Positions 1 to 54,995 of a DNA stretch of 64,000 bases are shown one piece after another. Each line of letters opens with the position of its first letter. Position 1 is the first letter of the stretch. A program made the translations under genes and the position numbers. The DNA comes from Ulota crispa (Eukaryota; Streptophyta; Bryopsida; Orthotrichales; Orthotrichaceae). A model generated the notes under the pieces. The model was not told where the DNA came from, searched no databases, and worked only from the letters and a program-made list of their open reading frames with translations. Location: the NCBI GenBank assembly GCA_963920765.1, contig OY987248.1, positions 21,300,539-21,364,538 of the forward strand, written 5' to 3'.

Positions 1-643
1 CTAAATGTCAAAGGCACCACATTATGGTGTTGACAATACTTTCAACTTCTATAAAACCTAACTAAGTTGTTATCTTAAGTAGATTTTATTTTTTTAACTA
101 TTCTTTCTGAAGTATAGTTTTAGTATCAAAAACCCAATTTTATAAACCAATTATTATGATTTTTCTATTCAAGATTTTGTGCAAGGGTGTCCATTGCAAT
201 CTTGACTTTTTTAGCGTCGCAAGCTCTTAGAAATGAGCCTCAAACACACTAGACCTTGGAGAAAAATTTACACTAGAAATTCATTTAAAAATATTGTAAA
301 AGAGACTTTGAAAAGCCATAAATCAATTGTAGTTATGTATGTTATGTCCTTTAACCCCATCTTTTTCTTGTGACCATTTTTTTAATTTGACATGTAAAAA
401 GAGGATTGCAAGAATTCAAGTCATTTTCACAATTTTAACACCCTCTTGATCAAACATTATTTAACTTTCAATCCATAAATGATATTGTTGTGTTTTGTTT
501 TTGTATGTGATCTCTAACATATGTAGTTTGATTTTGTACGGTTACAATTGAAAAAAAACTAATACAACTTATCAAAATTTTTGCTTTTTGTTCAACTTAA
601 AACAAATTCCTAGAAGCTCAAAAAGTGCCTTGGCATTTAGGGG
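1..643. mobile_element. Family A element A1 (TTAA-flanked TIR element), cut by window start
   Basis: The right end reads GGCATTTAGGGG followed by TTAA at 644-647. The left end begins inside the matching inverted end (CTAAATGTCAAAGGCACCACA). Its reverse complement matches 23,558-25,350 along its length once the insertion there is removed: about 645 bp in both copies. No coding capacity. It also serves as the unoccupied comparison for the palindrome inserted in A2. Confidence 0.8.
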
Positions 644-690
644 TTAAGCTCATTAGGATAGATTATTTCCAATTTACTTTCAACTCATTA

Positions 691-1265
691 AGGCATCTCC
701 ATTGGTGGCTCAAACACACTCAAAGTGGATGAAAAATGTTGAGGCCCCTCTCAAAGCCCTCTCAAGACACTTTGTCTTATCGTGTCTAGCAAGGGCCCTT
801 TGAGAGGGGAATGCTAAATCGTGAGCACGGATTCATGAGCCGTGAGCGTAAGTATTTTGTCAAAATATTAAATTTCATCTATAAATGTGTACATAGGACC
901 TTACAATTGCACATTATAAACATTCATCTTTTGAAGAATTGTTGTTTTTTAAGGTTTTCCATTAGTTTTGAGCTCAAAATTGATTCCCGCTCACAAAATC
1001 TTGGCTCACCGCTCATAGGCTCACCGTTCTATGCTCACAAAATAGCTTACCTCCCCTTTGAGACACTATTCATCATTAATAATGATCTTAAGTTTAGTGG
1101 ATTTTATCCTCTACTTTCCTTGATAAGTAGTCAGATGATTATTTATGGGGCATGTTGAAGTGCCACACCAACTTTTTGAGGAGCGTGGGTGGAAATCAAG
1201 GAGCTTGAGGCCCTTTCAAGAATAGATGAAAACCTTTGAACGTGCCATACTAGTGGAGATGCTTT
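691..1265. mobile_element. Family D element (AGGCATCTCCA ends) carrying a nested F element
   Basis: The ends are inverted: AGGCATCTCCATTGG at the left, AGTGGAGATGCTTT at the right. The outer parts match 37,692-38,020, including the shared stretches around TCTCAAGACACT and the GAGCGTGGGTGGAAATCAAG-type sequence. Without the nested insertion it is about 317 bp, close to the 329 bp of the other copy. Non-autonomous; the superfamily is not certain. Confidence 0.7.
806..1053. mobile_element. Family F element (repeated TGAGC motifs), nested in the D element
   Basis: About 248 bp lie between two copies of CCCTTTGAGA (796-805 and 1054-1063). The D copy at 37.7 kb has one uninterrupted version of this junction, so this is a real insertion with a 9-10 bp target duplication, as in Mutator-like elements. 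Both ends carry several TGAGC/GCTCA words. Related copies lie at 36,306-36,515 and 39,254-39,445. Confidence 0.7.
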
Positions 1266-3030
1266 TACTTCCTATCTCACTTTGGGACATGTGACATGAC
1301 TTAAGTGACCCCAACCTTGCAAAAGGACAGAAAAACACATTCCAAGGCACCTACCCTTGCTCATGGTGGAAATCCCCTATTGGTTGGGCATGGGACGTTA
1401 GTGACAATGGGTGCTTCCACCTTAAAAGCATCCAAGTTAAGGAAAGTTTTGGACAAAGAGGGAGTAATTAGCATGTCTGACCAAGACATTCTCCTTTACA
1501 CAACAAAGATTCCATTTACCCAGTACACAACAACTCCATCATATACTATTCTTTCTTCTACAAAATTAGGCTGAATAATCAATGATGGGGAACATGATTA
1601 CTCTTGCAAACAAAGAGATATATACTTGATTGGAAGTTAATTTACTTAGTTGACCAGGTGGGGTAACAACTGGTCAATGCTGGACACAAGCGACACTGTG
1701 TTTCACAATGATGAAGTTTTTGAGGTCAACTGGAGCTATCCTCGTTCCCAAAAATGAGTATTCCTTTCAAAAAATTCTCGACACACTTTAACTATCTTTG
1801 TAAAGAATGATTTCGGATAAGTAGTAATTTTGAAGTATTTTTTTAGCTAGCTTTTTGTTTGCCTTAAAAAGGTGTTATTATATTCAAACCGCATTGTAAA
1901 CACACAATCATAAAAGCGTATCTCTTTTATTTTGCAAGCATTAGCGAGTTTAATCATTGGTTTGTTTCAATAGAAGTTACCAAGGCTTACATTGTGAAGA
2001 GTTACGAGAGCATATGGCCCCTAATACCTTCCACAATAATCCTCCACATTAATTACAGTAGTCTACCTAATCATCAATCTTAATCACAATTATAATGCTT
2101 CGTTAACATTATTAAGCAAAAGGATGGAGTAACCAAGAGAGTCAACTCAAAATGCAGCACAACAAAGCTGATCAAGCCTTTTAATCATGTAAACCCAGAG
2201 TAATACCCTAATAAATACATGAGGTGTTTCAAATTTACTATTCAAATTCAACCATTGCAACAATTGATGCAATTCTGCACAAAATGTACCCCACATAAAA
2301 TTAAAAAATTCTGAACATAAAGCACACATGTGCGGCCTTGACAAAATTGGACTAAATGGAGAGCAAAAGAAAATATGTATTTCACAAGAAAGGGTATCTT
2401 TCAATGATACATGGGGGACGGTACATAAACCTGGTGGTAAGCAAACTTAAGTGCATTAAAAGGGGCTTGCAATCAACGGCATGGTGCTATCTTCAAAAAA
2501 ACCCTTCCTTTGGGATTTTCCAGCACATATGCACAATTTTAAAGGGAGGGAAGGGAGCCTGAATCCAGGCATCAAAATATAACCTCAGCATCATCAATGC
2601 TGTTGTTTTCACCTCAATGAATTGTGGTAAAAAAACAAAACGGGGGCAGGGGGTACTACATACATAATCAGGACTGTTAGCACCACCAAACATGGTGTTT
2701 CTGTTCCCAACAAAAAAAAGAATTATGTGTCACGGATTGCAGCAAATAGGTGGTGAACTTAGTAACAGACTTTCTAAAATTTGTTTAACGCCCAGAAATT
2801 CCATGTTGGTGGTACAACGAAAGTCCAATGGAGCACTTCCACGTGGTGGGGAAGAAAAAAATGTGAGCAGACCAGAAATCTTGCCTACCTCATAAAGCAC
2901 TACTCGTCTCGGAGTTGAAGTGCTCTGATACGCGGCCATATGTACACCAAAGTGCCTCCAGAGGCTTCGCCCCTCAATTCCTTCTACTTTCTTTCATTTT
3001 TTTGTTTTGTTTTTTTTTTTTTGACACTTT
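1266..3030. other. Unassigned sequence; right part is probable CRBN 3' flank
   Basis: I recognise no gene or clear repeat in this 1.8 kb. The part nearest 3030 must contain the CRBN 3' UTR, read on the minus strand, and starts with an A-rich stretch after the stop. I could not fix a polyadenylation site. The short open frames here show no family resemblance. Confidence 0.4.
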
Positions 3031-6000
3031 TTACGAACTGTTTTCAGCCAATTGTGACCTTCGAATTCCCCAGAATGCCTTCGGTCTACTCTCCTTGTCC
3101 ACCGCAGTGAAGCGCCATCCCATGTGAGCTGTGCACTCAGAACACTGTGCCAGCACCCATGCATATCTGCAATTTGCACACAACCACCCATGTTTCACTC
3201 TTCAAACTTCATTCCTAGAAATGAAAATATCATTGTAAATCTGCGTGAGTTTTTGTGTTTTCAAACAGAGCTTGACAAATCCACATAACTAACAAAAACC
3301 ACTGTACAAACGGGTAGATGTAACCATAAACCAACATAAATCACGCTTTCGTATGTTGTAAATATCTTACTACTAAAATCACAATGACCTCTGTAATACC
3401 ACATCTCCACTCTTTGTGATATCACGAAGATCTTTATAATATTGCATCTTGACCTTTATAATATCAAATCTCCAGTCTCTGTGATATTATGCATACAATG
3501 ACATTGACCTCTGTAATATCACATCTCCACTATGAGGTATTATGACATGATTCAACTTGAATAGTTACTGAATTTTTTATTCTTTATTCTTTATTCTATC
3601 TAACATATGAAAAATCCTAATAAAATACTAATGGTGAATGCATAGCGTAGCAAGCGCCAACTGCTAGTTACATGTTAAATCAATAGGCGGTAGATTAACA
3701 TAACAACAGCATAAGTATAAGACGTGGTAATACTTGAGGTTAAAAAAACAAGGGAGTAGAACTAACCCTGGGAACCAGCTGTTTGCAGTCTGAGGTTGCC
3801 CATCAAGCATTAACCCTCGAGCCCGCGAAAGCGTGAGAGTTTCATGCACATATCCATGAGCATTCACGAAAGCGCTGATGGGACCATCTGCTGACATGAC
3901 CAGCATGTTGCTTCGCCTTGCAATGGAAGCCTAAAAGCAACAAAAACAAAAGAGCTTAGTAATTGTCAAGAAATTCACGCTTACATTCTTCCTAAATTAA
4001 AACTTAAAACAACAACTTTTCAAGTTGTGGAGTTCATGAAACAAACCATGCAGCATTTGCAGCGGAGTTGATCCATGGACTCCAACAACTCAATCTCACG
4101 GCGCAGTCTGTGCACAGTTCCATCCACTTCCAGAAGCTCCTGCCGTGTAGAATCTTGTAAAGGCATGTTGCTCGCAATGTAATACGACAGCTGCGTGGGA
4201 GTCTGCACCATCGCCTCCATCCGAGGAAGCTCTGCCATTTGCCTCAACATATCTGCAAAAAAAAGCCCATAACTCTTCAGCTCTCCAGCTCTCAAGTCTT
4301 TGATACATAATACTACTCTTTTCACCCCTGAAAAGGACCTAAAGCTCTCGGTTTTCAAAAAACAGGCTCAGCTGGGGCAAGTTTCGAGCTTTTTTTTACC
4401 TGCAGCTCGCCTTGCCAAGTCGTAAGCATCGAACTGTCGATATACCCAGTGAGGCCAAGCAGTACGCTGAGCTCTGAATTTCCATTTCCCAGAGTCAGAA
4501 GCCCAAGCTTTACAAGCCGCACCCCAACCCCCTTCCCGAGGTCGTTTCACACCAGACACCTGACCTCCGGAGGATTCACCACTGTACATCGGCTGATCAA
4601 CAAGCGCAGGAGCTGCTGCTGATGCTGCTGATTCATGGACATCCTCAACAGCAGCACCTGCACCGGCACCAGCACCGGCACCGGCAACGGTATCGTAACT
4701 ACTACTACCTACGCCAGGATCTGCCACCTCAGCAGCTCGTCTCCGCACTCTTCTGTTCCGCCAGTACCCGAGCCTTTCCTCTTCTTCACTGCTCTCATCT
4801 TCACCGATTCCCCTTTCCAGAACGCGCAACAAATCATCACTCTCAGTGGTCTCTTCAGCTGCGGAGTCTGAGTCGTCAAACGCGTCGCCATCGCTGGCAC
4901 CACCTTGCATCGCTGCCTCGTCATCACTGAGCTCGTATGGAAGCGGCGAAGTCGCCGCTGCTCGTGGCACTTTGCCACCCTGGAACGACGGCACTGACGC
5001 TAACCGTGAGAACGCGTCTCTCGGAATGTGCATCGGCGATTCCTCCTCAATTATCTGCACTTGCGCAAACAACTGCAAGCAAACACCAGAAAAGTTCACC
5101 CATAACCGTCAAATTAAGGGTATTGAACATGATGATTATTAATATAAACATCTAGCAAATTATAAGATCCGATTAACAAGAGAAAAATGATGAGTTTGCA
5201 CTTTCGAATGGTATTATTTGGAGACTGTGAGAGTAAGTTGTGAACTTTTGAAGAGCCGACTGCAATTGCACCTAACACCAACACTAAGGTTTCATGTTCA
5301 CATGTTGTACGTCCTTGTAATTACATCTATTCACTTCCACAGATTTTCCAAGATTTTAGTGGTGATGCTTATGGGTACACTGATGGTTACGGGTGTTGCT
5401 ACCTTAAATGAGACCATAGGGCATAGTATATACGCTGCCGTATACTGTAGTTGGCATTTGCTACCAACAAGAAGTTTTTCTTTGAGATTTCAAATAGCTC
5501 ACTAGAAATTGCATTGATCTATTCTTCAACTTCTTAGTTGATATGAAATGTAGTAATGGTGTGAATCCATTCCAAATACAAGAAAAATACCTCGTATAGT
5601 ATTGGTCACACTAACACGCTCGGACGTTTAAGGGTTAACAGAAAGAGATATGAACTGAGAATAAACAAAACGGTGGGAAACTGGCTGCTGCTGCTGCACT
5701 TACCGCTCCATCTGCCTCTGTCCATGCTTTGCAAATGCGGAAGCGCTGCCGACCTTTGGCCACAACGTTCACCGAGCCGTCGGTGAGGTGACGCAGCTGC
5801 CGGATCTGGGATTATTATCGAGACAATTGTAAGGACTTCTGCTTGGGTCAGAGGAACAGAATCGCAGCAAGTGTGAGAGCAATACTGTACTGTACTAGAT
5901 TTTGGGCAGTGTGCTCGTGATCCTCTCACCTCGGCAGTTGTGCCGACTGACGCTACTGTGACCTGCCCGTCCTGAGGCCGAGCTCGGACGTGAATCACGC

Positions 6001-14033: not shown

Positions 14034-14957
14034 TACAGTAACCCCTAAATCCCTGGGGCCTTTATTTTGTCAAAAGACACCCAAAACTGCAATTTCTATT
14101 GCAAAGAGTAAAAAAGTTTGAAAATTGGTCTTTTTGTATATCTAACCATAGGATCTTGTACTAGACTTGTATAAGAATGTTCATACAAAAATTTATAAAC
14201 TTTGACTGCACAAATTGCAAGATATTTGCAATTGAATTGTAAAAAACTAACTTCTTTGCACCTTGCATGACTAGAATATTTGACTTTGAGCTTTTTAACT
14301 AAAATTTTTTGCATTGCAGAGTTTTGAGGTTTTTTTTTTTTTCTTGGTGGGAAGTTGAGTTAAGAATCTTAAAAAAAAAAAACCAAAAAACCAAAAATAC
14401 CTAATTTTCATTCTTAAAAAAATCATCAGGTGAATGAAGGTCTACGATTGAACAAAAACTTAAATTGTTAATAACCCTGCAATGGAATTGAAATGCAATA
14501 ATCCCAACAATGAGATTGTTCTAAAAAGCAAACTTCACCCTCCTCAACAAATTTTTTTGAAAAAATGTTAAACTTACATTCATAAATGAAGTTTATAAGT
14601 TATTTTTTCAAGAAGATGCTTGAATTACCCAAAAAACAAGCTTGTCCATAACTTTCTCATAACTAGTCCAAATGAAATGAATCAAAGCTTCAGATGTATA
14701 CAAAACTATAGCCTATGAAAAGAAAAAGAAAATTAAAAAAAATTCAAATTTTTGTAATTTTTTTTTGCTGCCCGATCTCCATAAATTTTTGCTTATCTAG
14801 GCATAACTTTTGCTTTTGGGCATGGATTGGAATAATAATTATATTCCCCAAAAGCTAATGTGTTTTTCTATCTTCAAAAAAAGTTTCAAAAAATCAAGAC
14901 AAAAATTGAGGTTGTAGGTACCTGCCCAAAATCTCAAGTGACACTCAGGAATTTAGG
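14034..14957. other. Unassigned AT-rich DNA with homopolymer tracts
   Basis: Contains T- and A-runs near 14,330-14,385. I recognise no gene or bounded repeat. Confidence 0.5.
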
Positions 14958-15160
14958 GGCTACATAGAGCATTTAGGTTGCCCCACACTAATTTCTAAAC
15001 ATTTTACACTTTATAATACTTATTGATACTACAATAATTCTCATTAATAATTATTGCAACAAATCAATTTTAAAGGACATGAAAATTACAACAAAGCTCC
15101 ACAAAATAAACTAGCATCAATTCAAGTTGTAAACCATGTGAAATTGGCCAAAGTGAACTG
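14958..15160. mobile_element. Family C fragment C4 (left part)
   Basis: GAGCATTTAGGTTGCCCCACAC followed by the usual C interior (ATTTTACACTTTATAATACTT, then AAGTTGTAAACCATGTGAAA). The right end is not present. Confidence 0.6.
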
Positions 15161-17225: not shown

Positions 17226-18716
17226 CATATATAGTAACTTATTTTTATTTCGTGAAATCTAGTCAAAGCCTCAAAGGTAGCACGCCATCCACGTAGTGGA
17301 GAGAGTGGGCTGCTGCTTCAAGCACACTCTCCATGCACAGCAAATTCTAGAATCTGCATGCAGACTATTCTTTGAAGCAACCGTTTTTTCTTCTTCTTCA
17401 TAAAATTTATTGTTTAAAGCTACAGACGTCAGTTTTAGAACGATAATACTTATATTTAGTAAAATTCACGCACGGCATCTTAATCCTCAAAAGCATATTA
17501 GAAAATGCAACTTACATCCAATGGAAACACACTACTACGTCCATCTTGCATGAATTGTTGACCACACTTTTTTGTCTTTTATTTTTATTTTTTTGTACTT
17601 CAAACTACCAACAAGTAGGAAAAGAAACTAAAAGTATAGTAGTGGAGACATGAGTTCTACCTCTAAGGTATGTAATTTTAGTTGCAAAGTTGTGCAAAAT
17701 GAGTTTCACGTAAAAGTTCTTACAAAGGCATATGTTGGGCTTGTTGCACAATGTTTCTTCTTGTCATTTCATTCAAAAAATTGGACAACTCGAAATATGG
17801 ATTTCAAAAATTGATTGCAAGTCCAAACAATATTTTTTCTAATTCGAAGGTTAAATAGAGACAATGGCAATTACTTATGGAGTATAGCAACATTGCATAA
17901 GTTTAACTTTGGTGCTCACTTTGTAAGGACAGTTCTTGCATTTCAAGAAATTTTCATCAGCATCTTATTTTTGGTATTGGATTCAGATAGGAGTATCAAA
18001 TCAACCCATCTGTACAATAATGACATCATATTAAGTAGCAAAATGCAAGTCTCATTAAAGTATTACATCAATAATTACACCAAAACAACAAAGTGTTAAT
18101 AAAAAGAGTAAAATTAAAAAAAAGGTGCAATTCTTTTCAATAACATCCTTTGTATGTGGTGGTTGGTAATGGGTTGGCACTGCTGGCTTGTTAGCTTGAT
18201 TAGGTGTAGCTGCTTGATGTAACCAACTTATGAAGTCTCTTGCGTCTCTCCTTTGTGCTCCTCTCGTGTTGTCATTTGTTTTGCATTTGTCACTACCTTA
18301 GGCCAGATCCTTTCATGATACATCAATGATCAAGAGGAGCGCTATATGACAACAATTCTCTCAATTCATGCTCATGGAATCAATTTTAGGATTTGGTACA
18401 TTTGGTAGAAAGTCACCCATGTATCAATCTCTTTTGAGCTCTAGATCTCTTCTTCCTTGTTTATGCAAATCATTGATGAGGTCTATTTCTTCCACATGGA
18501 ACTGCCAAACACAAAAATCAGTAGCTCTTACTTGAGATATCCTCCACCCACAAACGATCCTACTTTTACAAAACTACCACAACCCCCTTACATGGAAGGA
18601 GGCCCTAGGTAGTCTTTGACTAGATGTTTTGTGTATTTTATTTCTTTTTCAATTAACTCTATTCATTTGTACCTATAGAGGGATAAAGAGAATGTAAAGA
18701 TACATGGAAGCATTAT
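17226..18716. other. Unassigned DNA
   Basis: I see no bounded repeat. Around 18,120-18,560 the composition is less AT-rich and could be an old coding remnant on the minus strand, but every frame is broken and I recognise no domain. Confidence 0.4.
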
Positions 18717-19630
18717 CCCCTAAAGTCCTAAGCTTCCAACAAAACCGCTCTAAGACAGTCATTTCTAGTACAAGTACCAAATTTTAGAACAAAAACGTTT
18801 TTGGACATCTTTAACCATAAGGTCTTTTACTAAACTAGTGTCAAAAGATGGAAGAAAAACTTTGGAAATTTTCACCATGTAGATTGTAAGATATTTGAGT
18901 TGAATTGACAAAAAGCCATCTTTTGTCCCTACAAAACTCTGGGCAACTACACTTCATAAGGTCATGTTTGTATGAAAACATTTCCAAAATGGTTGTAGTT
19001 TGTTGGATTTTTTCTTCAAAGCAAGTTGGATACACAATTAAAAACTTTCAAATCATTTGGAATTGTACAACACATGGGAACAAAATAGTAGGTAAAAAGA
19101 AGTAGATTATGATTCAAACCACTAAACTGTTAAGAACTTGATTATGGAGATGAAAAGTTCCAATTCCAATGGTTATAATTTTGTAATAGATAATCTACAT
19201 TCTTTGGTTTTGTTTTTTTTCCAAAATATTGAAAATTGTGGAAAATAAAGGACTTCAAAGTTTTATTTTAGAGTAGAGAAATCCATAACTGCCCTCAAAC
19301 AAAATCAACTTGCATCTCATTGATCAAAATTAATTGATTAAAAGCTTCCCATGTATATGTAAATCTAAAGAACCAAATTCAAAAAAATAATAATTTAAAT
19401 GTAAGTTTTAAAGAAATTTTTGTTTGCCCGCAGAGCAAAGAAAATAACATATCATGCAATATCTTTTGAATCATGAAGTCAAAAGTTATAAAAATTGTTG
19501 GTCCTTAGAGCTACTCTGTGGACACATCATGTGTGAAAATTTCAAAGAAAAAAAAATGAAAAACCCATTGGTCATGAGCTGCCCAAAATCGTTATGTTGC
19601 CAAAAAAAGGGTGCTCATGACTTTAGGGGG
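18717..19630. mobile_element. Family A element A9, 914 bp
   Basis: Left end CCCCTAAAGTCCTAAGC after TTAT, right end GACTTTAGGGGG before TTAA (19,631-19,634). The right half matches the right arm of the palindrome at 27,038-27,764 (AAGTCAAAAGTTAT, CTATGTTGCCAAAAAAG-type words). No coding capacity. Confidence 0.75.
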
Positions 19631-19633
19631 TTA

Positions 19634-20038
19634 AGGTAGCCATATCCATATCCGACCCGTTCCCAATGCTGCACTCTACATTTGAGGTGTTCTTCACACA
19701 CTTTTGAACCCAAAGTGGAGTAGTGAATGCCACTTATACAAGTCAATCCTGCCACATGTCAGCTTAGGAGCTAGTATGGGAAAATTGGGATTGGAACCTT
19801 CAAGTACATGTATAGGAACACATCCAAGCAGTTTCAAGGTTAGTCTATAGTTGCCTTTAGGATCCTATGAACTGCAACTTTGCTCTTTAATGTAAAACAT
19901 TCTACACTATTTATTTCCACAAAAATGATGTTCCATGAAGCTTGTTGAAAGGATAATCTCGGATTTTTTTTTGAATTTTTATAGACCTAGCGGTACCCCC
20001 AAACCCTTAAACAGTTGGGTATATGGGTATACCTATCT
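19634..20038. mobile_element. Family G element between two A elements
   Basis: AGGTAGCCATATCCATAT at the left; TATGGGTATACCTATCT at the right; TA at 19,632-19,633 and 20,039-20,040. Both TA pairs lie within the TTAA sites of neighbouring A elements. Confidence 0.7.
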
Positions 20039-20041
20039 TAA

Positions 20042-20422
20042 CCCTTAAATGTCTGGTGGGTGGCCATGGCCTGCCTATAATTTAGCTTCAACAATGTTTA
20101 TACAGTAGCTTCAACAGTGTTTTGATTGATGGGCACCAATAGTATTGCTTCTAAAAGCTTCAAAAGTCAATAGTGCATGTTGACCTCATGGAAATTGCAA
20201 TAAGGGTAGCTTGAGACCTAACACCATGATTTTGAATTTTCTCATAATTTGGGTTACCTTAAAATATGAGTATATTTGATAAAATTGTTATTTTCCTTCT
20301 ATGATGGATCATGTGTTTAAGGTCACTTTGGAAAAAAATAGATGAAAAATGACTTTTTTTTGTTGTACAAAATGCTTTTACAGGGCCAAAGGAAAAAAAA
20401 CGTCCTCATGGACGTTTAGGGG
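20042..20422. mobile_element. Family A element A5, 381 bp
   Basis: TTAA (20,038-20,041), then CCCTTAAATGTCTGGTGGG; right end CATGGACGTTTAGGGG, then TTAA (20,423-20,426). Confidence 0.75.
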
Positions 20423-20491
20423 TTAACTCCTTTGAACTCCTTGGCTTTTTCGTCCAAATTTTCTAAACACCAGGATTTTTCATGCAATGTA

Positions 20492-23140: not shown

Positions 23141-23557
23141 TATACATAAAAACAGCACTCTAAGAAAGGCATTTTGAAAATGAATATGAAAAATATACTT
23201 GCCTCTTGTATAACCTTAATTTTGTACTATTGAATCGCCTGATTGGTTGGTTGTGCCTTCTCATGCTTGCAATTGCAGATATGAACAAGCTACTTGGATT
23301 AGGGGTGATTGTCAAAGCCAAATATTGATGATTATTTCAACACCAAAAGGGCAAGACTTAATACGATTACAAGGGCAAGACCTAATACGATTACAAGTGC
23401 AAGAATTGGATTGAAGGCCCAATTTTCGGTTTATGACCTCAAGTCCTTTGAGACACAAGAGAGAAAGACCCTCATTGTATTTTTGTAGTCTTATTTTAAC
23501 CCTTATACGTCATTTTAGGTACTGGTAAGGCAACTCCAAGAATCCCATAAGCATTAA

Positions 23558-25350
23558 CCCCTAAATGCCCAAGGCCTTTTTTGAGCTTCTAGGAATTTTC
23601 CCTAAACTGAACAAAAAGCAGACATTTTGATAGTTGTATCAAATTTTTTTTAAGGGAAAATATCAAAAATGGTCCTGACAATTGGTCGTATTTTGAAAAC
23701 AGGCGTGACAATTTTAAAATATCAACAATAGGCCTCATCAGGGTCCAGGAAGTATTTGAGTGTTTGTTTGTTTTTTTTTGTTTTTTGTTTTTCCTTCTTG
23801 TTGATTTCCTTTTATTCCCAAACCGGTTTATCAAAGAACTTCTTTCGTTATTTTCTCTATTTCATATTATAAATATATAAAAATTAGACCGATTTTTTGG
23901 TCCATGTTTACAAATTGCAAATAGTTTTTTCTCACCTCAACCAGCTAGCTTTGAACTAGTTGCCGGTTCTTCCCAAACTTTATATATCAAAAGTAGGCCT
24001 TGCAACTAAGGTGACCAAAGTTTTGTGCATGTTTATTTATGAGAATTGATATGAGCACACTTGGGGGGTTTGATATAAGCACACTAGGGGAGGGGTAAAT
24101 TTGAAATATTTATCATCAAAAGCTAAATTTGAAAATTTTGAATTCAGATTTGGTTTTGAAGACCTTGATTGAGTCTAGAACCACAATAGAGGTTACAATT
24201 GGACAACACCCAATATAAAAGCTTAGCTAGGGTGCAAATTATTACTTTTACTCTTTTTTATAAAAAACTTAAGCTTTTATATTGGGTGTTGTCCAATTGT
24301 AACCTCTATTGTGGTTCTAGACTCAATCAAGGTCTTCAAAACCAAATCTGAATTCAAAATTTTCAAATTTAGCTTTTGATGATAAATATTTCAAATTTAC
24401 CCCTCCCCTAGTGTGCTTATATCAAACCCCAAGTGTGCTCATATCAATTCTCATAAATAAACATGCACAAAACTTTGGTCACCTTAGTTGCAAGGCCTAC
24501 TTTTGATATATAAGGTTTGGGAAGAACCGGCAACTAGTTCAAAGCTAGCTGGTTGAGGTGAGAAAAAACTATTTGCAATTTGTAAACATGGACCAAAAAA
24601 TCGGTCTAATTTTTATATATTTATAATTATGAAATAGAGAAAATAACGGAAGAAGTTCTTTGATAAACCAGTTTGGGAATAAAAGGAAATCAATAAGAAG
24701 GAAAGAAAAAGAAAAAAAAAAGAAAAAAAAAAAATTGTCAGGCTTGTTTTTGAAATACGACCAATTGTCAGGACCATTTTTGATATTTTCCCTTCTTTTA
24801 ATTGTAACCGTACAAATTCAAACTAGATATGTTAGACATCACATAGGAAAAGAAAACACAACAGTGCCACTTATGGATTGAAAGATTATAATGTTCGATA
24901 AAGAGGGTGTCAAAACTGCAAAATGACTTCAAATCTTTCAATCCTCATTTCACATGTCAAATCTAAAATGTTGGTCACCAAAAAAATATGAGGTTAAAGG
25001 ACATAACATACATTTAACTCCAATCCATTTACAGCTTTTCAATAAGTTTTACAAATTTTTTAAAATGAATTTCTGATGTAAAATTTTCTCCAAGATCTAG
25101 TGTATTTGAGGCTCATTTTCATGAGCTCTCAACACTAAAAAAGTCAAGATTGCAATGGACACCCTTGCACAAAATCTTGAATAGAAAGTTCACAATCAAG
25201 AATTTTCAAAATTGGGTTTTTGATGCTAAAACTAGACTTCATAAAGAATAGTTATAAAATAAAAAATAGTAAATACAGCAGCTTAGTTAGGTTCTATTGA
25301 ACTTCAAAATATTGGCGGCACCAAAATGTGGTGCTTTGGGCATTTAGGGG
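23558..25350. mobile_element. Family A element A2 carrying a large palindromic insertion
   Basis: TTAA (23,554-23,557), CCCCTAAATGCCCAAGGC at the left; GCTTTGGGCATTTAGGGG at the right, then TTAA (25,351-25,354). Subtracting the 1,139-bp insertion and its 9-bp duplication leaves 645 bp, matching A1. Confidence 0.87.
23654..24792. mobile_element. Foldback element E1, Mutator-like, nested in A2
   Basis: A 1.14-kb near-palindrome whose arms meet near 24,245. Ends are GGGAAAATATCAAAAATGG and its inverse. Flanks TTTTTTTAA (23,645-23,653) and TTCTTTTAA (24,793-24,801) form a 9-bp duplication with one mismatch. A1 shows the unoccupied site. The right arm lacks about 75 bp present in the left arm. 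No transposase. Confidence 0.88.
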
Positions 25351-25354
25351 TTAA

Positions 25355-25580
25355 CCCTTAAACATCCATAGGGCATAGTATATGCTTTGACGTATAATTG
25401 TCATTTGCTACCAATAAAAAAAATTAATTTGGGATCTCAAGTAGCTCACTAGAACCACATTGATCTATTCTCCAACTTCTTTGTTGGTTGCAAATGCAGT
25501 AGAGGTGTGGATCCATTCCAAATCCAAGAACAATACCTCGTATTGTATTGGTCGGAGTGGCACACTCAGACGTTTAGGGG
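25355..25580. mobile_element. Family A short element A3, 226 bp, abutting A2
   Basis: Starts CCCTTAAACATCC directly after the TTAA that ends A2; right end CAGACGTTTAGGGG, then TTAA (25,581-25,584). Member of the five-copy short subfamily with interior CATTTGCTACCAA. Confidence 0.85.
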
Positions 25581-25584
25581 TTAA

Positions 25585-26939: not shown

Positions 26940-27852
26940 CCCCTAAATTAAGGGCCGTTGTCTCTTTGGGGGACAAATAGGATGTTGGGCATGTACTTAC
27001 AACTAAACTAGTTTGTGTGATTTTCTATTTTTTTTAACCCCAAAAGCCCTAAACACCTTTTTTTGGCAACATAGCAATATTGGACAGCTCACTATCAATG
27101 GGGTTTTCATTTTTTTTCTTTGAAATTTTTACACATGATGTGTCCATGAAGTAGCTTTGAGGTCCAACAAATTTCATAACTTTTGACTTCATGGTTCAAA
27201 AGTTATTGCATGATATGTTGTTATTTTTGCTCGGCGGGCAGCCCGGGTAGCTCATAAAAACTTCTTCAAAAATGATTTTTTTTATTTTTTTGAATTAGTT
27301 TTTTAGATTTAAGTATACGCGGGAAGCTTTCAATTATTCAATTTTGATTAATGAGATGAAAATTATGAGGAGTTTTGGTTTGGGGGTAGGTATGGTTTTG
27401 AAAGACTCCATACCTACGCCCAAACCAGAACTCCTCATAACTTTCATCTCATTAATCAAAATTGAATAATTGAAAGCTTCCCGCGTAAACATAAATCTAA
27501 AAAACTAATTCAAAAAAATAAAAAAAGTCATTTTTGAAGAAGTTTTTATGAGCTACCCGGGATGCCCGCCGAGCAAAGAAAACAACATATCATGCCATAA
27601 CTCTTAAACCATGAAGTCAAAAGTTATGAAATTTGTTGGACCTCAAGGCTACTCCATGGACACATCATGTAAAAAAAATTCAAAGAAAAAAATAAAAACT
27701 CCATTGATAGTGAGCTGTCCAAAATTGCTATGTTGCCAAAAAAGAGTGTTCAAGGCTTTAGGGGTTAAAAAAAATAGAAAATCACACAAAGTAGTTTAGT
27801 TGTAAGTACATACCCAAAATCCCATTTGTCCCTTGAAGGGGTCAATGGTTCT
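26940..27852. mobile_element. Outer palindromic family A element (A11)
   Basis: TTAA (26,936-26,939) then CCCCTAAATTAAGGG; on the right it ends at the TTAA 27,853-27,856 that also starts A6. The sequence 26,962-27,838 is one long inverted repeat centred near 27,400 (for example ACTTACAACTAAACTA and its inverse). The very end of the right arm is poorly conserved, so this boundary is less sure. Confidence 0.65.
27038..27764. mobile_element. Inner palindromic family A element (A10), 727 bp
   Basis: TTAA (27,034-27,037), CCCCAAAAGCCCTAAAC at the left; AAGGCTTTAGGGG, TTAA (27,765-27,768) at the right. Arms of about 360 bp pair with few mismatches. The right arm is related to the right half of A9. 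Confidence 0.8.
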
Positions 27853-27856
27853 TTAA

Positions 27857-28629
27857 CCCCTAAGCGCCCCAGCGCCCATATATTGCCTCCCACGATTTCA
27901 AAGCCTTATTTTGAGGACTAGATCTAACTTTTTGATCTTGCTATAAACTACAATTATGAAGGCATTCAAGTTGTCCATGCCAATGGAGTAGTGGCAAGGA
28001 GAGCCAAATGTTGTACAAGTGCTGCAAGAGATTTTGATTGGGTGAAACACCATATGGAGCGCGGTGGCACCGTATGGGTTGTGGTGGCAAGCTGCATTTT
28101 ACAAGTTGCAACCGGTCAAAATTCCTTGTAAGCTTCTTTGTGAGTTTAGTGGTAGCAGAAAAGTTGGTGGCAAGGGTTCAAGCATGTTCTAAACCCTTAT
28201 TATGGCAATAATCACCAATTGTGCCAATCATTGTTTTATGTGCAATAGCAATTTGAAGCCCTAAAAATTGACATAAAAAGAAGTGCAATCTTCAATAATT
28301 TATAAGTGTGTGCATTCACATCTAGTCTTGTTGCTCACAATTTTTAAAGAGGAATTGGAGGCTTATAGAATTTTGTAAAAATTATCAAATAGCAGCTACC
28401 TACCAAAAAATGAGATTTTGTCATCACATGTTGTTTGATCAAATGTTATAATCTCCCATCTCCCACAATCAATTGTTCCCAAAATTTACAAGCCATTTTC
28501 TAAGTAGCTATTTCACTATTCTCAATAGTCACTTTTTGTGAATCATCTGATTGACGGAAATACAATGCATCAAAGTCGTCAATCTCCAAATACTTTAATT
28601 TTGGTGAAATCGGCCTAGGCGCTCAGGGG
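27857..28629. mobile_element. Family A element A6, 773 bp
   Basis: TTAA (27,853-27,856), CCCCTAAGCGCCCCAGCG; right end TAGGCGCTCAGGGG, TTAA (28,630-28,633). Same element as A8 (44,709-52,312), where a LINE has been inserted. Confidence 0.87.
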
Positions 28630-28867
28630 TTAAGGGTTAACAGCCCCAAGTTTTCATACCATGGCCCTCCTAATCCAAGGCAACCAAATATCACAAATTT
28701 CTTAATGTAATAAACTGTTTTGTAACAAAAATCACCTAAAGTTTAACATGAATACACAATTTTCATTGTTAAAACATAATTGGCTTTGGTTCACTTTTTA
28801 ACTACATTTACAAAATTAGGAACCTCACACCTGATTGGTTGGTACTCGATAAGCAAAGCATGCTTAA

Positions 28868-29099
28868 CCCGTAAGCTCCCCAACGATGGGATCTTGTCAT
28901 TGGGGATCCCAAGTTTATCTCACTTTTTCTCTCGATCAGTATTGTGAAAAAAGTCGTGGCTAGTCTCCACATCAACAAAGAAGATGGTCCTTTTTCAAAT
29001 CCTACAATCACTTTTTCTGAATGTAATTTTCCAAGCTGTGGTGGCCATTAAAATCCCATTTTCTTCTAAACCCTAAAACAACTCCGGGTGCTCAGGGGG
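28868..29099. mobile_element. Family A element A7, 232 bp
   Basis: TTAA (28,864-28,867), CCCGTAAGCTCCCCAACG; right end GGGTGCTCAGGGGG, TTAA (29,100-29,103). The interior differs from the other short copies. Confidence 0.7.
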
Positions 29100-29114
29100 T
29101 TAAACAAAGAGATT

Positions 29115-31024: not shown

Positions 31025-31241
31025 AGGTAGAAGCACCCATTACCAACATTGTACCTAGTGGCGTCATTCTCTACTGAGGGTAGTCATTTTAGGACTTAAA
31101 TCTAGGTTCATAGATAGCTTATCGGCATATTAGTCAACAACAGTAGGCTATCTATAGCTTACCTAGATTTAAGTTCTAAAAAATACCCTAAGTAGAGAAT
31201 GATGCTATTAGATACAATGTTGGTAATGGGTGCTCCTACCT
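31025..31241. mobile_element. Family G MITE, 217 bp
   Basis: AGGTAGAAGCACCCATTACC and inverse ending GGGTGCTCCTACCT, with TA flanks (31,023-31,024 and 31,242-31,243). Nearly palindromic throughout. Confidence 0.82.
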
Positions 31242-31244
31242 TAA

Positions 31245-31476
31245 CTCTTAAATGACCGCTCTACGTATTGCATAGTAAATAAGCTGCCGTATAACTGGCA
31301 TTTGCTACCAATAAAAAGTTTTGATTTGAGATTTTGACTAGCTCACTAGAACCGCATTGATTTATATTCTAACTTCTTTGTTGATCTCAAATGTAATAAA
31401 GGTGTGAATGCATTCCAAATACAAGAAAATACAAAATATTGTATTGGCTGCAAAGGGCTCCTCGGTCGTTTAAGGG
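31245..31476. mobile_element. Family A short element A13, 232 bp
   Basis: TTAA (31,241-31,244), CTCTTAAATGACC; right end GGTCGTTTAAGGG, TTAA (31,477-31,480). Abuts the G MITE, like the pair in CRBN intron 5. Confidence 0.82.
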
Positions 31477-31480
31477 TTAA

Positions 31481-33023: not shown

Positions 33024-33272
33024 TACCACATCCTAGACAAACAATTCAATTTTCTAGAAATGTACACCTAAAACTAGCCTTTAAAAAAATAAAAATAAAA
33101 ATTTGGGTTTTGATGCAAGTTGGAAAAGCACTCAGTTTTTAGCTTATAGTGCTTTTTTTTTTTCTTTTTTTTTTTTTTTACTTTGTATGAATAAAGTACA
33201 AACTATAAGGTGTGTTGGTTTACAAGTGTACCTCAAATAGGTCATAGGCTCTCAAAACAGTTTAACCTTTAA

Positions 33273-34184
33273 CCCCTAAATGCCCGAGGCACCACATTCT
33301 AGTGTCCAAAATTTTTTAGGAAACTTTGAAACCCTCTTGAAGGCACATATTTTATTGTTTTGAGGTTATTTTTTTTGAAAAGTTGCGCATTGAAGTTAGC
33401 TTCACCGTTCAAATTCAACTTCCTCCATATCTTATTCCATTTATTTTTGGTGAAAGGTTAACTACAAGCATACATTTTTTGTCATGAATAGTGTTGTGAA
33501 TAGTATTGAGAATAATGTCACAGAGCCTATGAGAAGTTGCCACATTGAAAAGACAGGCATCAAGTTGAGCAAAAGGTGAAGATTTCCCTTGGGCACTCCC
33601 TTGGGCAATAAAGGCCTTTTTTTCTGAAATTTTGACATCTAACAAAATCTAAAAGTGCTCTTGGACTAATTTCAATTGGAATGTCTTTGTCATTAAAATT
33701 AGAATCTATTCATTGTTGAAAATCTTTCATTTGTAATGGTTTTTGGTCAATAATTGAAGCTGAAAATTTCATTGTATTAGGATGTTGCGTTTTGACAGTT
33801 GCGTTGTAGGCTCATTTGTGAAATTGTGGTCATGGATTTGGAAGAGGGGCCATTGGTTATGAAGTAACAACAATAAACACTAAAGCATCCTAAGTGGTTG
33901 TTTCCCAATTTTGTATCCAAAAGTTGCCAATTTGCATTGGAAGTTTTGGGCAACTCCAAAAAAAGCAAAAAATCCTATACTCATCATCATTCAATCACAA
34001 ATATCTTAAAATTTGCGAGGCCATTTTGGATTCTATTTGGGTAGTGCCATTTAGAAACCTTGAAGTTCAAGATTCAACGGTTACAATTTTTTTTTGATGT
34101 TTAATAATGATCTTACAAGGACAATTCAAAAACTTCAAAACTACTTTCCAAATACAAGAAAAACACCCTTGGACATTTAGGGGT
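33273..34184. mobile_element. Family A element A4, 912 bp
   Basis: TTAA (33,269-33,272), CCCCTAAATGCCCGAGG; right end TTGGACATTTAGGGG, TTAA (34,185-34,188). The first 40 bases resemble one end of A1 and A2 (GGCACCACATT). No coding capacity. Confidence 0.8.
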
Positions 34185-34188
34185 TAAA

Positions 34189-34413
34189 AGAATGAACTAC
34201 TATAATACATACTATGTACGCTGCTATATAATTGGCATTTGTTACCAACAAAAAGTTTTAATTTAGGATCTTGACCACCTCACTAGAACAACATTGATCT
34301 ATATTCTAACTTCTTTATTGATCTCAAATGTAATAAAGGTATAGGTGCACTACAAATACAAGAAAAATCCCCCATATTATACTGATCGCAAAGGATTGCT
34401 TCATCCTTAGGGG
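34189..34413. mobile_element. Family A short element A15, 225 bp, abutting A4
   Basis: Begins right after the TTAA of A4. Interior TTGGCATTTGTTACCAACAA matches the short subfamily; right end CATCCTTAGGGG, TTAA (34,414-34,417). Its left end has diverged. Confidence 0.75.
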
Positions 34414-34417
34414 TTAA

Positions 34418-36515: not shown

Positions 36516-36648
36516 TAGACCTTACCCAAAAATGGAGTCCAGGTTTTGGCAAATACTGAATTACTAATAATTCCTGTAAAACTGTTTAGAAAAAGGAAAC
36601 AGATCATGATATTTGCGGAAGGTAAGTTTTTTTTGAATGAGTGCTTAA

Positions 36649-37691
36649 CCCCTAAACGTTGGCACGGACAAAAAACGCCTGTTGCCTCCAAAAAAAAACT
36701 TTGTATCCTAGAAAAAGACCAATTTTGATCTGATTTTTTTTCAGAAGTGATCATAAAAGCGTAATGCATCATGGAAGGCAAAAAATTTCTCTTGAGATAC
36801 ATTCATTTTATTTTGTAACTCAAATTGTGATACATGGTGTTAGCTCCCGAGCTGCCCTTCTTGCAATTTTCATGAGGGCACCATGCACTGTTGACTTTTC
36901 CAACTTTTTGAAGCAATACTACCGGTGCCCATGTGCAAAACACTGTAGAATGCTACAGGCAAGACAAGCCACATTGATGCATCTGTTCTTTAAGATTTAA
37001 TATCGTTTAAGTGCTAAAGCCTTAAACAATTCTTAAACAAAAACTACCAGATACCAAGTCCTAAAAAGTCACACAAAAGCAAAGATATGGAGTGATTTTT
37101 TGAACTTTTCAACCGTATGATCTTACAGAAAAATTGATTTTGCACTATGTCAAGAAAAAAACCAAATCCTAAATCCTCAGCATTGAAAGGATCACAGCAT
37201 TCAAAGATGAGATTTTTTTTAATCTTTGAATATTGCCAAAAGAGAAAATCTAATTTCAATTGTTAGTGATTCCCATTTCATGTACTTGTGTGCCATGTAA
37301 TCTTTGCAATTTTGTCAAAAAAGTGTCAAGAATATGTGTGAGAATTTTCAAATCACTTAGAATTACATATTGTGGTTGCTTGAACTACAATTCAAATTGT
37401 TGAAAAATAAATTGGGCACGAAGGCAATAGTGAAACACGTGTCTAGTCAAACACCACAACAATCCAACAAGCACCCTTGTTGAAAATTTAAAAACCTACC
37501 TCAGTATCGGGATTTAAGAATTGATCGCTAGGAGAATCTACCCAATCATACTCTCATTACAATGAACGTTCAAGAGCTCTCCTTGAGACCATCTACAAGA
37601 GCGCCTTTAGTGCAATCGCTATTGCTTGACATACCACAAATTGGATAAAAAGTAACCCCTTTGCACAAATTGCTCAAGTCAAGTTGTCATA
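36649..37691. other. Unassigned DNA; one family A end at its left
   Basis: TTAA (36,645-36,648) followed by CCCCTAAACGTTGGCACGG looks like a family A left end, but I cannot find a matching right end. The remainder shows no gene. Confidence 0.4.
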
Positions 37692-39445: not shown

Positions 39446-40452
39446 CTCCAAATAGTGCATGCCACTTAGAGTAATGTCTTTGCTCCTTCCAGGACACTTG
39501 CATTGCACCTCCCTCTTATCCCATCTGTGTTAACGGATGTGTAGCTCTCTCTCACCCCATTTGTGGTATTATCAATGGATTTGGATTTTTGCACGAGCTA
39601 CAACGAGGTCTTCAAAGACTTGCACAGTGGTATGAGCAAACATTGTAACGCCTCTTCACAAAGTATAGAAACCCATAAAGGTGGTGCTCTAGAGGCTTGG
39701 AGTGCAAATCTTTCAGCTAAAATATTGATGAAGTATCATTTTCCAATTGCAGCGAAGCTGCTCTTATACGCAAGCATAAACAACCACGTACCCATAAGCT
39801 AGTATGTATCCACAAAGCACCATGTATCCGTAAATTGAGCATGTACCCAAATGCATGCCCAAATAAATGCAGATGATAAGCAGACTCTAGCTAAGCTTGG
39901 AGAATGTTTAAACACTTTGTTGAATGCTTTACATTTGGATATTGAAAATAGGACACAGATTTTTTTTAACTATCAATCAATACTAAGCTCTTGCAAATTT
40001 AGTTGCATAAAACTCAGATGCCATCTCTAGAGTCCATCTAAATTTAGAAGGGGTTTACAACTAAAAATTTGGAGCTCGTTGACACTTGACCATAGTTTAC
40101 GAGGGAAGTTATTTTTGATTCCTGAAATTTTAACAAGCTGATACATTGAGTTGAGGTGTAGATACAAGTTGAACGATGTCCAACATTAGAGCATCAAATA
40201 GAGGGCAAGGAATAAATAAAAAATTACCTAATGACTTTGATCCATCTCAATTTTTGTTTACATCCAATTTTAGGAGTAATCTTTCCATGTGATTGAAAAA
40301 ATAAAAATGGAGTTTGCTTGCACTCAATCATGGCTCTTGAAAGTCCTTTTGGTAATTTGTATATTCTAACTGTAATGCTTCATTAAAGTTTTAGTGGAAA
40401 GTGATGCTTGAGTTATTTTAGGTTGCTGAAACAAAAAGTGTGATTTGGAAAT
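39446..40452. other. Unassigned DNA with a detached minisatellite block
   Basis: The block at 39,770-39,860 resembles the minisatellite to the left. Otherwise no gene or bounded repeat recognised. Confidence 0.45.
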
Positions 40453-40860
40453 GGGAATTGATATGTGTACCACACCCTTTCAATTACTGTACCACACCCC
40501 CACAGTAAAATTTAGATTTCTACCATCAAAAGCTGAATTTGAGAATTTGGAATTGAGATTTGGACTTAGAGACCATGATTTAGTCTAGAACCACAAAAAA
40601 GGTTGCAATTCAACAACACCCAATGAAAAAGCTTATTTTTTTTTACAAACAAAAGTAAAAGTAACACTTTTCTCCCTAGCTAAACTTTTTCATTGGGTGT
40701 TGTTGAACTGCAACTTTTTATGGCTAGACTAAATCATGGTGTTGAATTTCAAATCTGAATTCCAAATTCTCAAATTCAGCTATTTGATGGCAAAAATCTA
40801 AAATTTACTCTAGGGTGTGGTACAGTAATTGAAAGGGTGTGGTACACATATCAATTCCCA
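40453..40860. mobile_element. Second foldback element of the E type (E2), 408 bp, at the assembly gap
   Basis: A palindrome from GGGAATTGATATGTGTACC to the inverse just before the run of N. The arms match the core of E1 (CATCAAAAGCTGAATTTGAG, TAGTCTAGAACCACAA, CAACACCCAAT words). No target duplication can be tested because the right flank is gap. Confidence 0.78.
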
Positions 40861-47482: not shown

Positions 47483-48577
47483 TTGCAAGACCTTATGCTA
47501 GAGCAGTTGGAGACTCAATATCACGTTGTATTGTTGAGATGGATGACCAATGGCGACAGGTGCACAAGGGAATTCTTTGAGGTGTTTAAAGACGCACAGC
47601 ACCGCTCAAGCATCACTCAACTCACGGTGGATGGAGCAGTTCTCTTTGATCAGACCGAGATGGCGTCCGCCATCATGGACTTTTACACCAAACTCTACAC
47701 TACAAACCTGAGACACTGCAGATGGAGAGAGACAGAAACATAGTGTTGGAGAGCATTCTTGTAATCATTACGCCAGCTCACAATGAGTGGCTCACGCGAG
47801 AACTCATGAATGAGGAACTTCAAGAGGCCTTCAAGGACTTGTTGGGATGGGGGGAAAGCAGCGAGAATTGACGAGACATTGACGGACTTCTACAAAGATT
47901 GTGAAAATGGCCTCCAAGAAGATATCTTTGCAGCATTCAAAGAGGTGCTTGCTACGGAGGCACTCTCGCAAAAACATAACCAGGGAGTGATAGCATTGAG
48001 ACCAAAAGAAAGGGACGCAACGCTAATCAAGAACTTCTGCCCCATTACACTCCTCTTTTCATTTTACAAGATAGTGGCCAAAGTTTTGATACAACACTTA
48101 CAACCTCTACTGCCAGAAGTCATCAGGCCATTCCAAACGGGCTTCACACATGGCAAGAGCATCATGGATGACATTTTTTTGGCCCAAGAATCAATGGAGT
48201 ATGCAATCAAATCCAATCAAGACCTAGCCCTCATCTTTCTAGACATTGAGAAGGCCTACGACAAGATCTCATGGCAGTTTATGAGGGAGGTTCTGGGCAA
48301 ATAAAGGTTTCATGCAGACTTCATACGTGGTATTATATTGCTCTATGCAAACGCCAGCTCTACCATGGTGGTAAATGGGGAGGTATGGCCAACTTTCAAG
48401 CTCTTGCGCTCGGTGCGCCAAGGCTGTCTTCTAACTCCCTTCCTTTTTGTGGTTGTACTTGATGCCCTTCAATATATGCTGGAGGAAGGGCGCTATGGGA
48501 TGGAAGGGTTTAGATTACCAAACACAACCACTTTAAGGGAGGCCTCCTATGCAAACCATATCGTTCTTTCCTTCTGA
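47483..48577 (+). pseudogene. LINE reverse transcriptase domain, broken
   Basis: Segments in one frame contain the conserved blocks of non-LTR reverse transcriptase: IKNFCPITLLFSFYKIVAKV, FQTGFTHGKSIMDDI, FLDIEKAYDKISW (catalytic Asp region, about 48,236-48,275) and VRQGCLLTPFLF. The YADD catalytic box reads YANH near 48,548, so catalysis would be lost even without the stops. The frame differs from that of the endonuclease. Confidence 0.87.
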
Positions 48578-52954: not shown

Positions 52955-52989
<35 letters not shown>

Positions 52990-53095: not shown

Positions 53096-53389
53096 GGTAG
53101 CAACACCCATAACCATCACCTCTAAAATCTTGGAGAATCTGTGGAAGTGAATAGATGTAATTACAAGGATGTACAACATGTGAACATGAAACCTCAATGT
53201 TGGTATTAGGTGCAAATGCAGTCGGCTCTTTAAAAATTCACAACTTATACTCACAGCATCCAAATAATACATTCAAAAGTGCAAACTCATCATTTTTCTA
53301 TTGCTAATAGGATCCTGTAATTTGCTAGATGTTTATTAATAATCATCATGCTCAAACCCTTAATTTGATGGTTATGGGTGCTACTATCT
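53096..53389. mobile_element. Family G MITE, 294 bp
   Basis: GGTAGCAACACCCATAACCA at the left and TGGTTATGGGTGCTACTATCT at the right, with TA flanks (53,094-53,095 and 53,390-53,391). It is the inverted, better-preserved copy of the element in CRBN intron 5. Confidence 0.83.
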
Positions 53390-53854
53390 TAGCACCCACA
53401 CCCACGCAATTCATAATTTCAAATAGCTTTGCACTAGCCTCCAAAGTGCCCTTGGGCTCTAGAGCTACGGTGCCAAATACAGTTGCAACCAATATTTAGA
53501 AGTTTAAATTAGTTGGAAATTAAGTGTTACAATCATACATATTAAAAGGTTATATGATGATGGGTGCATAAAAAAAATTGTAAAATCCTCAAAGTGGCTC
53601 AAATACATTTATACATACGACCATACATATGGCCGCAAAAGGCTTTTGGGCCGTTCAGGGGCTAGAAGCAATCTAGTTATTCAAATTTTCAGTGAATGCA
53701 GGACTCATCTCCATCATTTTCCCAAATTTCGATTTTCCCTTTGCGTGGGTCTAAGGTGGAAAAGTTCCATTTTTTTCACTAAGCAGTAAGAATCTGCTTC
53801 TAATTTGTGGTTTTTCAATTTTCCCCAACTTAATCTCTATAGACTACTAATTAA

Positions 53855-54750
53855 CCCTTTAGAGCCCACGGAACCATAATTTGGTTCAAAAGCGTGGTTT
53901 TTGGCCTATAGAGTAAAATTTCTTAACAATTTGGAAATTGGTTTTGAAGAACACTTGTGACCATAAGAATTTTGCATCTAAAATTCAACAATGAAACTGC
54001 AAATGTAAATTGACAAATAATGGTGTTTATATAGCATGGCCTCAAAATATGTATTCATCTTTTGTCAAAGATGGATCAAAGCAACAACACAATACATCAA
54101 ATATCCTAGAAGAATACCATACTTCAATCAATGTGAGGTCCTAAAAAATTCATATTTGCTTAAAATGCACGCTTGCATTGTTTTGTTATATAGTAGCAAT
54201 ATAATTGTAGTATTTGGTGATTTATTGAAATGGTGTTGTCATTTCACCTTTAAAATTTGTCATCCTACATCTAAAGCCAATTCTTTATTGTTTTCACCAA
54301 TTGGATTTTTCACAACATTTATCAAATTTATTGTAGAACCATTATAGGGTAGCAAACAAAGTGGGATTTTGACCCCTTTTGTTCACTTACTACACCTTGT
54401 GATTGCTAGTTTTATCCATTTGGTATGAAAACAATCTTATTGGAGAGGTGGGAAATGTTGCTTTCCAAAAATATAGGACTCTTCTAAAGCAAAGCTCCCA
54501 AGAAGCAATAACATCCAAAACTACATAAGCATGAAAAACTAGAGATTTTCCACCTAAAGCTTATTCAATCAATATAAAAGTTCACCTCCAACATTAGATT
54601 TGGTTAAAATCTTGACAATTTATAGTAAATAAAGTTTTCCCCCCTTCCATGCAAATGGATTACTGAAATTGGGTTCATTTTTTATTCAGGTGCAGTTCAC
54701 CACCCTTGTTTGTAGTGGATTATGAGAAAATGTGTGTGGTCTTTAAAGGG
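53855..54750. mobile_element. Family A element A12, 896 bp
   Basis: TTAA (53,851-53,854), CCCTTTAGAGCCCACGG; right end GTGGTCTTTAAAGGG, TTAA (54,751-54,754). Interior shares no obvious sequence with the other copies. Open frame 54,036-54,347 shows no domain. Confidence 0.7.
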
Positions 54751-54995
54751 TTAAGGGTTTTTGAAATTAGATAGGGATTCAAAGTTTACAAATTTGGCCT
54801 ACCAACAATAGATTTCTAAACTCAAATGTATTCCCCTACGTGAAAACTTCAAAATTTTCTAGGATTCAAGAAAGATGAAGGTCCTATGTTTACTAGAAAA
54901 CTCACCTAGGTACTTCTAGTGTGCAGCCTTCAAATATGAGTAGTTCAACAAACCAATCTCCAATATTAACTTACAAGGGTACTTAAATATCATTA

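Follow-up and report, generated by a model that had tools for sequence, protein, structure and literature searches.

The 64,000-nucleotide stretch of the Ulota crispa assembly GCA_963920765.1 analysed here (contig OY987248.1, positions 21,300,539 to 21,364,538; hereafter the window) carries many elements bounded by TTAA and CCC-starting ends. They are very probably non-autonomous piggyBac transposons of a plant nuclear genome, comprising miniature inverted-repeat transposable elements (MITEs) as well as fold-back elements. Some of these piggyBac MITEs are deletion-derived and some are fold-back forms. The original prediction, made from the letters of the window, had proposed a piggyBac affiliation, and this is supported by PF13843 transposase copies in the same genome, by right ends next to 13 of the 16 copies examined, by a right part that a window element has in common with a transposase-bearing copy and by empty sites with TTAA.

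The window holds 25 TTAACCCYTAAA ends at up to one mismatch, whereas 100 dinucleotide shuffles averaged 1.54 and reached 6 at most, which confirms that elements of the predicted TTAA-CCC(C/T)TAAA form are present. As in the piggyBac superfamily, the 5' end is CCC followed by C or T and then T. The sequence CCCCTAAAYG, given in the prediction as the end, does occur, but it is one of several variants (CCCTTTARYGACC, CCCCTAAAGGCCC, CCCCTGAGCGCCC and others); likewise, the predicted span of 1–54754 holds many separate elements but is a range and not a single feature. Substitutions are present in many window ends, and some elements have a single recognizable end, for example at 647, 5638 and 36645. 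Counted over 274.8 Mb, the genome contains 7,785 + 7,885 exact matches to the 13-mer TTAACCCYTAAAY (15,670), compared with 168 + 158 (326) for the reversed pattern, and a separate set of ends, HNNNCCCCTAAAGGACCA, occurs 4,359 + 4,417 times, with 0 + 0 for its reversed pattern. Together, the two patterns mark more than 24,000 ends. Their density in the window joined to 200 kb of upstream sequence (a sample referred to below as the 264 kb) is about two to three times the genome average.

TTAA is kept at these ends as one block, because 37 ends found independently of it conserve all four positions. These belong to 151 ends located by interior homology, of which they are the 37 not picked by the TTAA motif, and positions −4 to −1 read T in 31, T in 28, A in 28 and A in 33 of them. 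The limits of homology fall at the same place when the 264 kb is aligned to itself, a test in which one copy pair may count more than once: of the 461 alignment starts that lie no more than 20 bp from a motif end, 295 coincide with the outer T and 70 with the base just outside it, compared with 8 and 11 for the two positions next inward, and 248 of 430 alignment ends coincide with the outer A. To find empty sites, the two flanks of each of 81 candidate end pairs were fused around a single TTAA and compared with the 264 kb, where many matches were other repeats. Informative empty relatives were obtained for seven elements, and three of these, at joined-sequence positions 46083 (930 bp), 151514 (926 bp) and 172716 (929 bp), have relatives with a single intact TTAA at best identities of 90–92%; a second empty relative of 46083 (86% identity) has lost the tetramer. 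None of the seven informative sites suggests a duplication other than TTAA. The target duplication found is therefore TTAA, as in piggyBac elements, and the prediction that TTAA is retained, outer T and A included, agrees with the homology boundary, the 37 independent ends and the three intact empty sites; the predicted single TTAA at empty sites also fits, with the tetramer intact in three and changed in four of the seven. Spanning matches for 147782 (69%), 106104 (68%) and 143095 were set aside, as were those for 28404 and 74490, which are local repeats, and those for 108583, 189447, 191120, 225350 and 231240, where element sequence makes up one of the flanks.

It is very unlikely that these are instead Tc1/mariner-type (Stowaway-like) MITEs, in which only TA would be duplicated, the element would start with A and TTAA would reflect a target preference. 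Stowaway MITEs are known in plants (PMC10004981, in excerpt), and by our own reasoning a filled TTA-ACCC...GGGT-TAA site with an empty TTAA reads alike under the TA and the TTAA models. Since filled and empty sites are identical under a TA-only model with an element starting with A, it is the deviating sites that matter. In the first 100 listed HNNNCCCCTAAAGGACCA ends, TTAA is present in 86, and the deviations affect the outer T (8 ends), the second T (2), the third base (2) and the inner A (9); the HNNNCCCCTAAAGGACCA pattern excludes an outer G, and 4 of the 14 deviant ends are two duplicated pairs. The outer T and the inner A thus vary about equally, and more than the central TA, which argues that all four bases are target. 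All 14 deviant ends were examined, in 13 pieces, and in one clear case, a 726-bp fold-back copy (L036), TTAG stands on both sides as a direct 4-bp repeat, which favours a 4-bp duplication over TA alone. Rare variant duplications that include TTAG are described for animal piggyBacs in the available part of PMC10813416. A TA-only duplication, the mark of Tc1/mariner elements, does not fit this repeat or the pattern of tetramer variation, and right ends of the kind seen in the window are carried by piggyBac transposase copies, as described below.

The genome that carries the MITEs also carries PF13843 transposases. A genome search for the transposase, which the original prediction had recommended, gave 120 matches at 116 scored places (528 first-look candidates; best E 1.3e-73), all of those listed exceeding the curated cut-off, and none in 14 control genomes. 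We take PF13843 (DDE_Tnp_1_7) to be the piggyBac transposase family, an assumption borne out by matches to solved transposases. Open pieces of two copies, L043 and L044, match 6X67, which, like 6X68, we take to be the Trichoplusia ni (T. ni) piggyBac transposase, and 9C0F (piggyBat), with E values of 1.8e-17 to 1.2e-11. The 363-aa open piece of L043 has aspartates aligned to D268, D346, D447 and D450 of 6X67 (numbers counted from the alignment), which have a catalytic role. Cys-rich C-termini were seen by eye in transposase pieces, for which no Pfam family match was obtained. The frame is open over the PF13843 match in a few copies, among them C1:1180709-1181995 (563 codons) and C4:3591922-3593028 (476 codons). 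Just downstream of the transposase frame of L043, at 2960-3650, lies a long tetranucleotide array with in-frame YIHT repeats, and the joined upstream sequence contains an array of this type ~136 kb from its start.

The surroundings of 16 transposase copies were scanned for ends, using pieces downstream of 14 of them (six of which extend L042-L045, L047 and L048) together with L041 and L046, 49 kb in all. With a weight matrix built from 123 ends and a threshold of >9, reversed sequence gave nine scores above threshold in 264 kb, so that about two would be expected over 49 kb. Right ends with TTAA-CCC were found downstream of 11 copies by score and of two more, L041 and L048/L054, by the TTAACCC motif alone, and right ends of the same kind therefore bound transposase copies. 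A single end facing the wrong way scored >9 (L059); it adjoins the right end of that copy, and we judged wrong-way ends to be the better background for MITE ends. At L059:647-650, one degenerate TTAA is common to the transposase right end and a MITE, which apparently inserted at the transposon boundary. A subfamily-specific 21-mer end lies 1.5–2.4 kb downstream, in the correct orientation, of 6 of the 116 transposase copies, the pattern itself having come from two of these six; when the positions were shifted as a control, the mean was 0.06 and the maximum 2 in 2,000 sets. With one mismatch allowed, the 17-mer at the right end of the copy at C1:1180709 had no left partner there, and therefore left and right ends differ in sequence.

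One window element can be connected directly to transposase copies. L060 comes from the minus-strand transposase at C2:36779670-36780554, and its last 580 bp match window positions 33601-34187 with 83% identity over 589 bp; L051, from the transposase at C5:10869739-10870896, aligns to 33636-34152 with 84.6% over 519 bp. In the joint alignment, read in 50-column bins, identity rises from 29–56% to 73–94% at 33601. Because of these 83–85% alignments and the sharp break, the element at 33269-34187 is, judged by sequence, a piggyBac transposon piece joined at ~33601 to 332 bp of other sequence. The subterminal sequence that it has in common with a transposase-bearing copy is on the right side only. 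Its left 332 bp, most likely the left end of the full element, are repeated genome-wide (1457 first-look candidates), and none of the 40 copies scored has an identity below 88%.

PIF/Harbinger (Tourist-like) MITEs with a 3-bp TTA or TAA duplication have next to no probability as an explanation, even though the PIF/Harbinger transposase PF13359 is abundant, with 150 matches in the genome. In none of the three Harbinger loci examined (7.8 kb) is the transposase open reading frame (ORF) flanked left and right by CCCYTAAA ends. The only element that could be bounded among them, L040:2882-6494, has GGCCCGCTTTACATATGG ends of its own, of a GGCCC type, and the duplication TTA, so no PIF transposase was found between ends of the window kind. 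The 21-mer end lies within 3 kb downstream of 0 of 103 Harbinger copies and upstream of one, and both the outer T and the outer A of TTAA are conserved at the window ends. Sola3 is another superfamily linked to TTAA. Membership in Sola3 or Kolobok, the latter with TTAA duplications and 5'-RR...YY-3' termini (PMC9587614, in part), is just as improbable, since the window elements start with CCC and end with GGG and right ends of the same kind are found on piggyBac transposase copies. A MULE/SWIM-like gene upstream of the window (C7:21155634-21158119) was considered as a partner and rejected, with no correctly oriented CCC end nearby; it is a broken MULE-like transposase in which PF10551 falls below the cut-off and the SWIM zinc finger PF04434 just above it.

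Several observations weigh against the piggyBac assignment. Most of the listed transposase copies contain stops. No empty site was found for any element inside the window, all seven informative cases lying outside it, and the empty relatives of four of them (49187, 146834, 168787 and 190157) differ from TTAA by at least one base. Among the deviant ends, L026, L035 and L037 have a deviant tetramer at one end and TTAA at the other, for which we presume point mutation. In L027, AAAG at one end stands against TTAC at the other, and L030 (CTAG) has TGGC before its only possible second end; neither fits a 4-bp duplication. For the remaining deviant ends, the second end was not clear within the piece examined. 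The 7-base motif behind 2 of the 13 right ends is common (79 + 84 occurrences in the 264 kb), and in 3 of the 16 copies (L044/L051, L047/L053 and L055) no right end was found in the downstream letters examined, the alignment of L044/L051 reaching to ~35 bp short of where it was expected. On the left side, none of the 116 transposase copies has the 21-mer upstream, and no left-type end scoring >9 was found in the eight copies L041-L048, for which the 1.5 kb before the domain was scanned; a complete autonomous element was therefore not shown. The prediction that transposases would carry ends of this kind is thus supported for the right ends. By eye, none of the 40 scored MITE-like copies of the left arm (of 1457) lies beside a listed transposase, and the left 332 bp of 33269-34187 are not tied to a transposase copy.

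As non-autonomous piggyBac elements, the MITEs would move by cut and paste, using piggyBac DDD transposases whose genes lie elsewhere in this genome. Such a transposase would recognize ends starting with CCCYT and insert into TTAA, which would be duplicated. We infer from the sequences that the transposases described here may be the ones that move these MITEs. Candidate end-pair distances cluster near 234–240, 725–735, 926–930 and 975 bp. The 723–736-bp copies (seven compared) are inverted repeats over their full length, with 84–93% identity between halves, and the 929-bp types are asymmetric and have end modules in common with these fold-back copies. The MITE architecture of a ~330-bp left end and a ~570–590-bp right end would have arisen by loss of the coding middle, and in the 723–736-bp type one end would be present twice, in inverted orientation. 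Any ordering of deletion and amplification is our inference. Adjoining elements have a single TTAA in common at 25351-25354 and at 34184-34187, as is expected when an element inserts at the boundary of another. Bounding on both sides was possible for 11 spans in the window, namely all those in Table 1 except 5405-5638, 34184-34417 and the two single ends. A 2.8-kb 'element' from the first end pairing proved on reading to be two MITEs in opposite orientation, and other long end pairs from that pairing look nested and were not used.

Studies of piggyBac have mainly concerned animals, and its clean excision has led to its use as a gene-transfer tool. The elements described here have in common with the piggyBac superfamily (6X67/6X68 and 9C0F) the TTAA duplication, the 5' CCCYT ends, a PF13843 DDD transposase and a C-terminus that is Cys-rich by eye. 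They differ from known piggyBac elements in their plant host, in their end and subterminal sequences, in the palindromic 723–736-bp forms and in the great excess of non-autonomous ends over the transposase matches found. End motifs known for piggyBac include CCCTT, CCCTC and CCCAT (PMC10813416, in the part available). Animal piggyBac MITEs, such as mPok of the Pokey family in Daphnia (PMC4912750) and those of corals (PMC2872659), are short, non-coding and piggyBac-linked in the excerpts of these papers, and the likeness to the present elements is one of description only. The Stowaway and Tourist MITEs of plants are, in the excerpt of PMC10004981, small, abundant and inverted-repeat like these, but have TA or TTA/TAA duplications and other transposases.

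In the open-access literature searched, with subscription papers and preprints outside the scope, no abundant piggyBac MITE family of a land plant was found described with its transposases. The original prediction had held that such families are not well described in plants, and this fits the literature found, although PiggyBac is listed among seven angiosperm MITE superfamilies in a 2023 review (PMC10004981) and among plant superfamilies in a 2024 review (PMC10794571), both represented by excerpts. Repeat tables in the available parts of two genome papers report 1,230 PiggyBac pieces (122,417 bp) in Ceratopteris (PMC6890710) and one piece of 75 bp in Stipa (PMC8319324). Because these tables report only traces, the scale reached here is unusual for a plant genome, while the kind of element is already known. 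A wider claim, for which we see slightly less than an even chance, is that native piggyBac forms a major DNA-transposon lineage in a land plant. Its transposases would then fall into many diverged families and its MITE ends number tens of thousands, and a few open copies would possibly be active or have been so recently. If this is true, no plant-native piggyBac system would have received a detailed description before. With matches to the transposase at 116 places and more than 24,000 ends, the genome indicates that the superfamily can thrive in plants; it prompts one to ask whether the elements were inherited vertically or arrived horizontally, and it offers ends and enzymes native to a plant. 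Repeat annotation could also benefit, as TTAA/CCC elements of related plants may be filed as unknown.

Table 1. Elements, spans and single ends of the piggyBac type in the window
Feature	Position	Strand	Remark
Single TTAACCCCTAAA end	636..647	-	Without identified partner
Member of 234-bp family	5405..5638	-	Right end and body; left end degenerate
926-bp element	14038..14963	+	Degenerate tetramer: GTAA left, CTAC right
922-bp span, ends TTATCCCCTAAAGTCC / TTAACCCCCTAAAGTC	18713..19634	+	Weak pairing, 10/16 first bp
389-bp MITE	20038..20426	+	TTAA ends
1801-bp span, TTAACCCCTAAATGCCCAA on both sides	23554..25354	+	Probably a single element; nested palindromes inside; first 16 bp identical between ends
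234-bp MITE, TTAACCCYTAAA at both ends	25351..25584	+	TTAA 25351-25354 common with neighbour
735-bp fold-back element	27034..27768	+	Halves are inverted copies; apparently nested in another element
781-bp element, ends TTAACCCCTAAGCGCC / TTAACCCCTGAGCGCC	27853..28633	+	
240-bp span between two TTAA-CCC ends	28864..29103	+	Weak pairing, 8/16 first bp; may not be a single element
240-bp MITE	31241..31480	+	Family of 25351-25584
919-bp piggyBac MITE	33269..34187	+	Right 587 bp (33601-34187) homologous to right end of transposase-bearing copy
234-bp relative	34184..34417	+	Left end without CCC; TTAA 34184-34187 common with neighbour
Single TTAACCCCTAAA end	36645..36656	+	Without identified partner
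904-bp element, CCCTTTAR-type ends	53851..54754	+	By eye like the ends of transposase copies L052/L056

Long palindromes occur in the window at 23866-24627, 29177-29574, 40452-40860 and 56165-56950, some with arms that are 100% complementary, and a palindrome family of the TGTACCACACC type recurs upstream of the window and in L039 and L044. Compound tandem arrays with 18–73-bp units occupy 38750-39172. A reverse transcriptase ORF of the long interspersed nuclear element (LINE) type (PF00078) lies at 47810-48304, and a protein-kinase gene (PF00069), by our reading of AGC type and with more than one exon, at 56983-58914 on the minus strand. In the 264 kb, PLATZ, BAH and protein-kinase ORFs are encoded, and PLATZ, as a plant-specific family, agrees with a plant host. 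The contigs are chromosome-sized, C1 measuring 41.4 Mb and C7 22.0 Mb.

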